Shown in pieces: positions 20,038 through 23,256 of a stretch of 64,000 bases of DNA. The stretch's first letter is position 1, and each line of letters starts with the position of its first letter. The stretch lies in contig NZ_FOPZ01000002.1 of the NCBI RefSeq assembly GCF_900113615.1, positions 124,001 through 188,000 on the forward strand. The letters run 5' to 3'. Below the pieces are notes generated by a model. That model saw only the letters and a program-made list of their open reading frames with translations. It ran no database searches and was not told where the DNA came from. The DNA is from Halorubrum aquaticum (GTDB lineage: Archaea; Halobacteriota; Halobacteria; Halobacteriales; Haloferacaceae). The position numbers were made by a program, and so were the translations under genes.

Positions 20038-20991
20038 TCATCGCTCCCGGACGGCGTCGGCCGGGAGCAACACGCCGCCCGAGCGGAGCAGGCCCGGAGC
20101 GGTCCCGTCGCCGGCGTCGGCGGCGAGACTCCCGAGCGCGCGACGGCCCGGAACGGCCACGACGCCGGGCGAGAGGAACGACGCCCGCCGAGGGAGTTCC
20201 GCTCCCGGAACGGTCGCCCCGGCGTCGAACCCCGCGCCCTCCGGGAGGACCCGGTCGCCGGGGAGGTACGTCCCCGCCGAGGCGAGCAGTTCCGCCTCGG
20301 CGGGCTCCCCGAGATCGAACGACTCGCCGCGACGCAGGACCGTCCCGTTCCGCAGGACGGCGTCGAGCTCGGCCTCGAGTTCCGGACGGCGCTCGTATAG
20401 GTCGCCGACGACGTCGCCGGGGATCAGGGTCCCCGGACGGAGGACGCCGGTCAGGAAGGAGCCGTCGCCGGATCGGGAGTCGTCCTCGGCGTCCGCGAGC
20501 GCCTCGTAGAGGCCGGGGGCGGCCGCGGCCGTCCGTTCCGGCGGGCACCACACGACCGTCCCGTCGGCCGGATCCGACCCGAGGAACCCGTCGCCGGGAA
20601 CCGACGCCAGCGCGTGTCGCCAGGGTTCGGGGTGGTCGGTTCCGCCGGCGCGCGTCAGGAACGCGCGCCCCGGAACGACCACGACCGCGTCGGCGGCGGC
20701 CACCCGCCTCGTCGTCACGTAGCCGCCGGTGGCGGCTTCTCCCGACGACCTGGTTCCGGGTCGTTCCCGCGGCGCCCCGCCCTTCCCGCCTCCCTCCTCG
20801 GCGGCGATCCGCCTCGCGGAGGAGCGGACCCGTCGCGCGCGCTGTCGACCGACCCCGTCGAGCAGGTCCGCCAGCCCGTCGATCGGGGCGTTCGCGACCT
20901 CCTCGACCGATCCCAGTCCGTGATCGCGGAGTCGCGCCGCGCGGACCTCGCCGATCCCGTAGACGTCCTCGAGCGAACTCACGGCCGACAC
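20038..20991 (-). CDS. Helix-hairpin-helix protein with Pro-Gly-rich C-terminal repeats
   Basis: Function unknown, 317 residues. Residues 6-60 contain helix-hairpin-helix motifs ('SLEDVYGIGEVRAARLRDHG', 'LADLLDGVGRQRARRVR'), usually non-specific DNA binding. After a Gly/Arg linker the C-terminal 200 residues hold irregular short blocks with Gly/Pro turns: 'GVLRPGTLIPGD', 'RNGTVLRRGESFDLG', 'GTYLPGDRVLPEGAGFDAG', 'APGLLRSGGVLLP', suggesting a beta-rich fold. Third and last gene of the tail-tube-like operon, 40 bases after its neighbour. A DNA-binding module beside phage-tail-like proteins is unusual; it could also be an unrelated passenger. Confidence 0.75.
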   Translation of the reverse strand: MSAVSSLEDVYGIGEVRAARLRDHGLGSVEEVANAPIDGLADLLDGVGRQRARRVRSSARRIAAEEGGGKGGAPRERPGTRSSGEAATGGYVTTRRVAAADAVVVVPGRAFLTRAGGTDHPEPWRHALASVPGDGFLGSDPADGTVVWCPPERTAAAAPGLYEALADAEDDSRSGDGSFLTGVLRPGTLIPGDVVGDLYERRPELEAELDAVLRNGTVLRRGESFDLGEPAEAELLASAGTYLPGDRVLPEGAGFDAGATVPGAELPRRASFLSPGVVAVPGRRALGSLAADAGDGTAPGLLRSGGVLLPADAVRER

Positions 20992-21031
20992 CTCGGGGGC
21001 GACGGGGCGGCGGGGACGGCGGCTCGTCGGA

Positions 21032-21523
21032 TCACTCCGCGGACACCTCCGTGATCCCGTCGTGTGCCAACTCGAACGTCTCCGTCGCGACGCCCGAGCC
21101 GAGGGCCGAGAGCGTCGGACCGTCCCATCGCACCGGGCGCGCGCGCTCGCACCGCCAGACGCGGGCGGGATCGCCGCGTTCGTCCAACAGGACCACTCGG
21201 ACGGGTCGCGTCGTGCCGTGGCCGTCGGTCCACTCGCGGAACCACTCCCACAGCGCCGTCCGGTCGGTCACGCCGCGCCGGAGCTCGAGCCGCGGCGACG
21301 CGGATGCGGATCCGCGGCCATCGGGATCCTCGGTTCGAGCGCCTCCCCACGACGCGTCGCGAACAAGGAGCCGTCGCCAGAGCGGTCCGTCAGCCTCCGT
21401 CCCGTCGTCGACGGCACGCGCCGACAGGCCGCGGACCTCGCTGAACCCCGCCGTGCCGACCGCGTCGACCTCGACCAGGAACCGGTGGCTCGGATACGGG
21501 TCGGTTCGGTCATCCGCCGACAT
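21032..21523 (-). CDS. Phage tail tube-like protein (T4 gp19 family), second copy
   Basis: Tail-tube-like protein of 163 residues, of the family annotated as T4 gp19/TIGR02241 (from memory). It begins MSADDRTDPYPSHRFLVEVD and continues 'GTAGFSEVRGLSARAV', then 'LRRGVTDRTALWEWFREWTD', 'RPVRVVLLDERGDPARVW', and ends 'ETFELAHDGITEV', all family landmarks. ATG at 21523 used; an upstream extension is Arg-rich and overlaps the previous gene. Divergent from the other copy, with Ser/Ala and Asp insertions. No sheath, baseplate or AAA+ gene is nearby. Confidence 0.85.
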   Translation of the reverse strand: MSADDRTDPYPSHRFLVEVDAVGTAGFSEVRGLSARAVDDGTEADGPLWRRLLVRDASWGGARTEDPDGRGSASASPRLELRRGVTDRTALWEWFREWTDGHGTTRPVRVVLLDERGDPARVWRCERARPVRWDGPTLSALGSGVATETFELAHDGITEVSAE

Positions 21524-21582
21524 CGTGCCTCCGTCCCTCTCGCTTCCGCGACGACCGCGGGAGTGCTCGGCGATCGAACATG

Positions 21583-22023
21583 CTACGCGGTCCGTTCCAT
21601 CCCCTCGTGGACGATCCCGAGCCGCTCGATCGCGACCTCGGAGCGGTCGGCGGCGAGGTCGGGCGCGACGTAGCGGCTCGGCCACGCGTTCCTGAACTCC
21701 CATCGCGGCCCGGAGCTGCCCTCCTCGTCGAGGAGGACGACCGCGATCGGCCGGCGCGCCTCGCCGAGTTTTCCCTGCTCGACCAGCTTCCGCCACTCGT
21801 AGAGCGCGATGGAGTCGTCGGTCGCGCCGCTCTCCAACACGAGCGGGTCGTACCGGCCGAGCCCGCCGAGCTTGCGCGGAGTGGGCGGCTCGTTCCCCTC
21901 GCGGTACTCGATCACGTCACTCCGGGCGGTCGGGAGCGAACAGCGGCTGAACCCCGCCTTCGCGACGCCGTCGATCTCGAGCAGGTATCGGATCTTCCGG
22001 TACGGCCCGTGTCTATCCGGCAT
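21583..22023 (-). CDS. Phage tail tube-like protein (T4 gp19 family), first copy
   Basis: Canonical member of the gp19/TIGR02241 tail-tube family, 146 residues: 'MPDRHGPYRKIRYLLEIDGV', 'AGFSRCSLPTARSDVIEYRE', 'PTPRKLGGLGRYDPLVLESG', 'IALYEWRKLVEQGKLGEAR', 'IAVVLLDEEGSSGPRWEFRN' and 'IERLGIVHEGMER' follow family order without gaps. In contractile injection systems such proteins stack as the inner tube. ATG 22023 is preferred to a GTG two codons upstream. The next tube-like gene starts 59 bases on. The protein looks intact, with no stop or frameshift. Confidence 0.9.
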   Translation of the reverse strand: MPDRHGPYRKIRYLLEIDGVAKAGFSRCSLPTARSDVIEYREGNEPPTPRKLGGLGRYDPLVLESGATDDSIALYEWRKLVEQGKLGEARRPIAVVLLDEEGSSGPRWEFRNAWPSRYVAPDLAADRSEVAIERLGIVHEGMERTA

Positions 22024-22132
22024 CGGCACGCCCCCGTGGGTCCCGTCCGCTCTCGTTCGTCGGTGCGGCGCCCGTCGGTACGCCGTCCCCCGGTGCGGCG
22101 ACCGTCGCGGCCGCGGATGTGTCCCGTGTCAT
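22013..22132 (-). CDS. Possible small protein (39 aa) ahead of tail-tube genes
   Basis: Not recognised. ATG 22132 opens MTRDTSAAATVAAPGDGVPT..., 39 residues rich in Ala, Gly, Thr and Asp, with high G/C third positions. Its TAG stop overlaps the start of the first tail-tube-like gene by 11 bases, so its translation could couple to that gene. No membrane helix. Too short for composition to be decisive. Confidence 0.3.
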   Translation of the reverse strand: MTRDTSAAATVAAPGDGVPTGAAPTNESGRDPRGRADAG

Positions 22133-22139
22133 GGTACTC

Positions 22140-22155
22140 GTTGTCTATTGACAAC
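22140..22155. promoter_or_regulatory. Perfect 6-4-6 palindrome ahead of tail-tube genes
   Basis: GTTGTCTATTGACAAC: perfect 6-bp arms around TATT, eight bases before the possible ATG at 22132. AT-rich compared with its surroundings (it sits next to TAACCTAACC and AATTAATCC), so it may be an operator in the promoter. Confidence 0.5.
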
Positions 22156-22239
22156 TAACCTAACCAAACGACGGGCCTCCCAATTAATCCTGTCGGGCGA
22201 GCGGGCGGTGACGCGGGGGTACACCCGCCACGCGCCGTC

Positions 22240-23256
22240 TCACGGGGGCGCGACCGCCCGTCGGAGCTTCTCGGTCGAGAGGTTCCGGCCGGTGACCGGG
22301 ACGACGACCGTCTCGCCCGCCACGTCGTCCATCGACCGCACGGCGGCGACGGCGGACGCGGAGGCCCCCTCGATGAGGATCCGCTCCGCCGCCAGCACGT
22401 CACGGACGCCGTCCCAGATCGCCTCCTCGGGAACGGTGATCAGGTCGTCCAGCCGGTCGCGGAGGACCCCGACCGTGAGCGCGAACGGGACCCGCGAGGA
22501 GATGCCCTCCGCCTCCGTCGTCGCCGACTCCGCCGGATCGAGGTGCCCCTCGTGGTACGCGCGGTAGGTCGCGTCTGCCGCCGCGGACTGGACGCCGATT
22601 ACCTCCGCGCCGCCGATCGCGCCGGTCGTGAGACAGTAGCCCGCCGCGCCGCTCCCGCCGCCGACCGGACACACGACCCGGTCGACGGCGGGCAGCGCCT
22701 CCAGTACCTCCAGCCCGGCCGTGGCGACGCCGGCGACGAGGTCGGGCTCGTTCGCCGAGTGGACGTAGCGGAGTCCGTCCTCGGCCGCCCGGCCCTCGGC
22801 CCACTCGCGCGCCTCGTCGTAGTCGGCGCCGGTCGCGACGACCTCCGCGCCGAACCGCTCCATTGCGGCCACCTTCTCCGGGTTCGGATCGGCGGGGACG
22901 GCGATCGTCACCGGGACGCCGAACTCGCGGCCGGCGTAGGCGACCGACTGGCCGTGGTTCCCCGTCGACGCGGCGATGAGGCCCGCCTCGCGGAACTCCT
23001 CGGGAAGCCGGTGGCCGAGCGTGACGCCGCCCCGGACCTTGAACGCGCCCGTCGGGAGCGTGTCCTCGCGCTTGAAGTAGACGTCCGCGCCGGTCTCCGC
23101 GGAGAGCGCCTCGCTCCTGACCAGCGGCGTCCGCGGGAGGTACCGGCGGACGATCTCACGGGCCTCGTACGCGTCTCCCGGCTCCGGCGGCGTGAGGTCG
23201 TGATACGGGAAGACCGTCGTCTCGTCGGGCGAGTCGACGGGTTCGTATCGGCTCAC
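22240..23256 (-). CDS. Threonine/serine dehydratase-like PLP enzyme
   Basis: Fold-type II PLP enzyme, 338 residues, converting threonine or serine to a 2-oxo acid and ammonia in the first step of isoleucine synthesis or catabolism. The PLP lysine is in 'LPTGAFKVRGG' near residue 70, the phosphate loop is 'CPVGGGSGAAGY' near 195, and 'IAASTGNHGQSVAYAGREFG' near 92 holds the Asn contacting PLP. It lacks the C-terminal ACT domain of biosynthetic IlvA, so it is the short catabolic form or a racemase-like relative. GTG start 32 bases from a 19-bp palindrome. Confidence 0.9.
   Translation of the reverse strand: MSRYEPVDSPDETTVFPYHDLTPPEPGDAYEAREIVRRYLPRTPLVRSEALSAETGADVYFKREDTLPTGAFKVRGGVTLGHRLPEEFREAGLIAASTGNHGQSVAYAGREFGVPVTIAVPADPNPEKVAAMERFGAEVVATGADYDEAREWAEGRAAEDGLRYVHSANEPDLVAGVATAGLEVLEALPAVDRVVCPVGGGSGAAGYCLTTGAIGGAEVIGVQSAAADATYRAYHEGHLDPAESATTEAEGISSRVPFALTVGVLRDRLDDLITVPEEAIWDGVRDVLAAERILIEGASASAVAAVRSMDDVAGETVVVPVTGRNLSTEKLRRAVAPP

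Follow-up and report, generated by a model that had tools for sequence, protein, structure and literature searches.

The window, a stretch of 64,000 nucleotides, corresponds to positions 124001-188000 of contig 2 of a haloarchaeal genome (G000; 3.18 Mb, 99.5% complete). It contains a module of three minus-strand genes, referred to here as tube 1, tube 2 and the third gene. A check of the open reading frames confirmed that all three exist at the positions given in a preliminary description of this DNA and that they are open and intact. The module comprises the following features:

22024..22239, minus strand: intergenic region preceding tube 1, with partial conservation among the seven species aligned; putative promoter region
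21583..22023, minus strand: tube 1, Cis1-like tail-tube protein of 146 amino acids (PF06841, TIGR02241, alignment)
21940..21942, minus strand: codon of tube 1 Cys28, fixed in the pair proteins (alignment)
21032..21523, minus strand: tube 2, Cis5-like tube/adaptor protein of 163 amino acids with a rebuilt beta2-beta3 loop (PF06841, fold match)
21296..21418, minus strand: tube 2 codons 36-76, replaced variable beta2-beta3 loop (alignment, pLDDT)
21149..21151, minus strand: codon of tube 2 Cys125, fixed in the pair proteins (alignment)
20038..20991, minus strand: third gene, 317 amino acids, N-terminal helix-hairpin-helix (HhH) domain and Pro-Gly-rich region (PF14520 match)
20812..20976, minus strand: HhH domain of the third gene, residues 6-60 (PF14520, AF2)

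Tube 1 and tube 2 are separated by 59 bp, tube 2 and the third gene by 40 bp. The intergenic block upstream of tube 1 is probably the promoter region. According to a genome-wide profile search, tube 1 and tube 2 are the only gp19 genes of this genome, and profile searches revealed neither a sheath nor a Baseplate_J gene in it. Spike (VgrG/PAAR), AAA+ ATPase and cap genes were not recognised in the flanks of the pair loci. A threonine-dehydratase-like gene adjoins the module (window positions 22240-23256); a second copy, 87% identical, is located at G000:C3:194080-195090.

Both tubes had been assigned to the gp19/TIGR02241 family, which was borne out by the profile searches. Tube 1 matched PF06841 with an E-value of 1.7e-34 (118.9 bits, cut-off 28.2) and TIGR02241 with 4.2e-34 (117.3 bits, cut-off 62.4), tube 2 the same profiles with 2e-22 (79.9 bits) and 2.5e-19 (69.4 bits), respectively. 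In sequence, the two proteins are thus related to gp19/TIGR02241 and not to the Hcp families. Among the NCBIfam models, tube 1 is nearer to CIS1 and tube 2 to CIS5 of the contractile injection systems (CIS), syringe-like machines that are driven by a contractile sheath, but both scores lie far below the equivalog cut-offs (100.5 versus 220 bits and 63.9 versus 260 bits). A tube fold may be assigned to tube 1 from its sequence. The first half of tube 2 is divergent, its best matched stretch beginning only at position 51 of the 134 positions of PF06841. Thus, the earlier assertion that both tubes contain complete family blocks does not hold for tube 2. Its tube fold was nevertheless recovered by a single-chain AF2 model of moderate quality (mean pLDDT 74.2; 70 residues at 90 or more), which in Foldseek matched CIS tube and adaptor proteins with E-values down to 1.4e-8. 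The top three matches were adaptor-type chains (7aeb_Y, 9qgl_5A, 6rao_F), and Afp5 was among the nearest folds. By profile and fold, the two proteins therefore resemble Cis1, the tube protein, and Cis5, the baseplate adaptor ring protein of CIS.

The two tubes differ in the beta2-beta3 loop with its EG motif, which is present in tube 1 but absent in tube 2. That the replaced segment of tube 2 is this loop follows from the strand order in the AF2 model, in which residues 36-73 have pLDDT values under 50 and are predicted to be disordered. In all 15 tube 2 proteins of CIS compared, the segment comprises exactly 27 residues and contains an EGG core, whereas in all 22 proteins of the pair type it is 30-57 residues long, lacks EGG and varies in sequence among genera; a replacement of this kind was seen in none of the 15 CIS proteins. 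In phage tubes, the beta2-beta3 loop supplies most of the inter-ring contact and joins the stacked rings, and without it tubes stop growing or hexameric rings remain (PMC8718954). On these grounds, tube 2 rings are predicted to be unable to stack on that face. Tube 1, on the other hand, retains the canonical YREGN...PTPRKL motif (Y, R and G in 22/22 pairs, E in 21/22) and should therefore still stack. Each protein also possesses a cysteine that is fixed in the pairs. Cys28 of tube 1 occurs in 22/22 pair proteins but in only 3/14 CIS proteins, Cys125 of tube 2 in 22/22 and 0/15, respectively.

The third protein had been described as an HhH protein rich in Pro-Gly, and both features were confirmed. 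Its first 60 residues matched PF14520 (HHH_5) with an E-value of 8.4e-9 (36.2 bits, cut-off 27), and in the sequence, basic residues come after the GIG and GVG hairpins. With 11 Pro-Gly dipeptides, the protein has the highest density of this motif in the window, a value reached by none of 2000 shuffles. The N-terminal 60 residues resemble the HHH_5 domains of L32e, RadA and NusA; the remainder, by contrast, is restricted to one lineage. Beyond the HhH domain, no relative was found in the other haloarchaea searched, and the approximately 230 Pro-Gly-rich residues match none of the families searched. An AF2 model built with six sequences gave a mean pLDDT of 40, only the HhH part being predicted with any confidence. 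Matches to the HhH profile occur in 387 of the 392 genomes of the order, but since nearly all of them are generic HhH domains, this figure is uninformative on the module. Full-length relatives are encoded exclusively beside the tube pair, in the module of the Halorubrum type. Hence, the suggested partner, whose DNA binding is putative, applies to the Halorubrum-type lineage but not elsewhere, as the full-length protein was not detected in the other haloarchaea covered by the search. It represents an add-on in a single lineage rather than a component that defines the pair. In genome G019, the third gene (L024:10821-11800) contains a frame change near the C-terminus, the lost end being encoded in another frame; the change is either genuine or due to misassembly.

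To describe the distribution of the pair, 392 genomes of the order were considered. PF06841 tubes were detected in 76 of them, of which 45 also encode the sheath (PF17482) and 31 do not. The sheathless group consists of 21 genomes with an adjacent pair containing a tube 2 of the divergent type and ten genomes in which a single tube of some other kind stands alone. Together with G037, which originates from outside the sample, 22 pair genomes were thus available, spanning six genera and two families. The genera include Halorubrum, Haloferax and Halorientalis, the species Halorubrum rubrum, Halorubrum halodurans, Halorubrum cibi and Halorientalis regularis as well as Haloferax denitrificans, gibbonsii, prahovense, marisrubri and sulfurifontis. 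The co-occurrence survey proposed earlier hence confirmed that the tube pair recurs without a sheath, while the third gene accompanies only the Halorubrum-type pair. In the genus to which the window belongs, the module is patchy (about seven of 51 genomes). In six other species, the same surroundings harbour a tube 1 of this type (82-97% identity), behind which tube 2 and the HhH protein are encoded; G049, the closest tube-bearing relative, has a tube 1 that is 97% identical, and at locus L023 the reading frame of tube 2 is open. Where the module is missing in the genus, the FAD-dependent oxidoreductase gene that neighbours it elsewhere is present in different arrangements.

The pair is surrounded by unrelated housekeeping genes that are different in each genus. 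The neighbour sets, recognised from their sequences, comprise ribonucleotide reductase, histidinol-phosphate aminotransferase and FAD oxidoreductase or a metal P-type ATPase and a glycosidase. A comparison of the neighbourhoods revealed no partner or cargo gene common to the pair loci across genera. The large genes that precede tube 1 in other genera (677-701, 528-555 and 1046-1054 amino acids) were considered as divergent sheaths but were identified by eye as P-type ATPase, FAD oxidoreductase and ribonucleotide reductase, respectively. The tube genes overlap by 4 bp in genus g41 and at several loci of Haloferax. Moreover, about 150 bp upstream of tube 1 are conserved in Haloferax although the gene beyond differs, which suggests that the pair may have its own promoter. 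An origin from a virus or plasmid was rejected, since the searches yielded no close relatives of the pair among viruses or haloarchaeal plasmids. A solitary tube gene of a different type is present on one Natronosalvus plasmid.

In maximum-likelihood trees, which were unrooted, contained some long branches and included only 14-15 CIS tubes, all 22 tube 1 proteins of the pairs fell into one clade (97/92) beside the tubes of haloarchaeal CIS. All 22 tube 2 proteins likewise formed one clade (100/97), which persisted after removal of the loop columns (100/96). A single clade for each tube fits one origin from haloarchaeal CIS, and a single conversion of such a system would be the simplest history. 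The claim that both tubes are under selection was corroborated by intact reading frames in 22/22 pairs and by the dN/dS ratios (median pairwise values, NG86). For tube 1, the ratio was 0.236 in the Halorubrum-type loci, nearly the same as for the flanking peptidase gene (0.238), and 0.172, 0.386 and 0.189 in other genera. The tube 2 values were 0.314 (Halorubrum type) and 0.287, 0.224 and 0.311 (other genera), its core (0.143-0.217) being more constrained than its loop (0.447-0.554; Halorubrum type 0.217 and 0.447, respectively). The third gene is under looser constraint than the tubes (0.496 overall, 0.395 in the HhH domain). It is well supported by these comparisons that the pair is a conserved unit and not a stray fragment.

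Among known systems, Hcp of the type VI secretion system (T6SS) has a related hexameric-ring fold. It works together with a sheath, VgrG and a membrane complex. The nearest solved folds of tube 2 are the baseplate adaptors Cis5, Pvc5 and Afp5, from which it differs by the replaced beta2-beta3 loop. Related genes of the Cis1 and Cis5 type occur in the haloarchaeal CIS, the archaeal T6SS of Halogeometricum borinquense (PMC11566945). However, these systems possess a sheath and a baseplate, which the pair lacks besides having the tube 2 loop replaced, and they contain two small genes between the tube genes, while those of the pair are adjacent. The survey describing them used the sheath Cis2 as query (PMC11566945), so that sheathless tubes would not be part of it; of the 76 tube-bearing haloarchaeal genomes found here, 31 have no sheath and would thus be overlooked. 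In the literature searched, in which subscription journals were thinly covered, no description of a sheathless Cis1-Cis5 pair or of orphan or sheathless tubes was found. Thus, the tube family and the haloarchaeal CIS (PMC11566945) were known already, whereas the sheathless pair appears to be a new variant.

As the pair apparently arose only once, has been conserved and has had its second subunit rebuilt, it gives the impression of a tail tube recruited for a new use. The preliminary description had offered two alternatives, a domesticated minimal tube complex or a fragment of a dispersed injection system, and the recurrence of the sheathless pair in six genera with intact frames, purifying selection and one origin favours the former. 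The chances seem about even that a sheathless tube or ring device made of two subunits descends from one ancestral CIS of haloarchaea; such a device would be cellular, non-viral and non-contractile, occur in at least six genera, have taken on a new job and have been missed by sheath-first surveys. Somewhat more tentatively, the pair may be interpreted as an exapted CIS remnant, in which Cis1-like tube and Cis5-like adaptor-ring subunits were kept as adjacent genes and form a non-contractile ring or short-tube complex. In this scenario, a haloarchaeal CIS would have lost all other components and retained the tube and adaptor-ring subunits. Tube 1 would still make stackable hexameric rings, the oligomeric state being that of the family, and a tube 2 ring, unable to stack at its replaced loop, would cap or limit the stack. 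The two subunits might assemble in the cytoplasm into a static pair of rings or a short tube, in which tube 2 forms the cap or the base. This assembly would serve as a scaffold, channel or cargo-holding ring without ever being fired. In the Halorubrum-type lineage, the downstream HhH protein would have been added and may serve to anchor the complex on nucleic acid or on a further protein. If true, a pair kept by selection after the loss of the contractile apparatus would show that the tube alone can be exapted. It would also provide a minimal two-protein system in culturable Haloferax for the role of a tail tube without a sheath and for one loop as a stacking switch.

Several other explanations have to be weighed against an exapted tube or ring complex. 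The pair might be a slowly decaying relic, the functionless last genes of a lost CIS, as could be suspected from its patchy presence in the genus of the window, the variable tube 2 loop, the looser third gene and the frame change near the end of that gene in G019. Decay is difficult to reconcile with 22 intact pairs, a tube 1 dN/dS ratio equal to that of a flanking enzyme gene, core values of 0.14-0.22 in tube 2, two cysteines fixed in 22/22 pairs and one origin across six genera, which makes this reading rather improbable. It is unlikely, if somewhat less so, that the proteins act as Hcp-like rings which bind and protect a small client in the lumen and form no tube and mediate no injection. 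Hcp-type hexameric rings are known as effector receptors and chaperones (PMC5874247), and tube 2 is Hcp-like in its fold, but a neighbouring client gene common to the genera was not found in the comparison of the loci.

A capping-type tube 2 could also serve as a decoy that poisons the tail assembly of an invading virus or competing element with gp19-like tubes. A tube 2 that has lost its stacking loop would match what is expected of a chain terminator (PMC8718954), and the absence of a CIS sheath from all pair genomes is compatible with such a role. This is improbable, however, as the searches found no similar tube in haloarchaeal viruses, the stacking motif is kept in tube 1 and PADLOC gave no match, the last result also speaking against a known anti-phage system. 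Least probable by far is the dispersed injection system of the preliminary description, with sheath, baseplate and spike genes elsewhere in the genome. In none of the 22 pair genomes was a sheath detected by PF17482, which found sheaths in 45 other genomes, or by a second profile, which was built from nine haloarchaeal CIS sheaths and run without a positive control. Baseplate_J was absent from 20 of the 22, including that of the window, though found in all three CIS controls, and the window's genome is 99.5% complete. The genome-wide sheath and baseplate searches hence rule out this possibility almost entirely, even if one Baseplate_J gene each in G014 and G296 could be adduced in its favour. 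These strong matches (G014:C44:20005-20412 and G296:C1:2321531-2321944) are possibly derived from proviruses.

Tube genes of other kinds were encountered in further haloarchaeal genomes. Solitary ones immediately followed by a Peptidase_S74 (endosialidase chaperone) protein were identified at L043:2745-4283 and L107:9798-11085 and, similarly, at L040, L044, L045 and L109; the genomes concerned are mostly sheathless, but G069 and G083 possess a CIS elsewhere. In two Halorubrum genomes without a sheath, a solitary gp19 tube precedes a conserved protein of approximately 136 amino acids that has no Pfam match (L041:9452-10333 and L042:9425-10285). In two sheathless genomes of the window's genus, a Nob1-like PIN-domain gene lies close to a solitary gp19 tube whose N-terminus carries a hydrophobic extension (L037:9560-10111 and L038:9544-10089). 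Finally, in the full CIS loci of G219 and G241, two tandem tube-1-like genes adjoin the sheath gene (L103:9757-10605 and L104:8186-9074).
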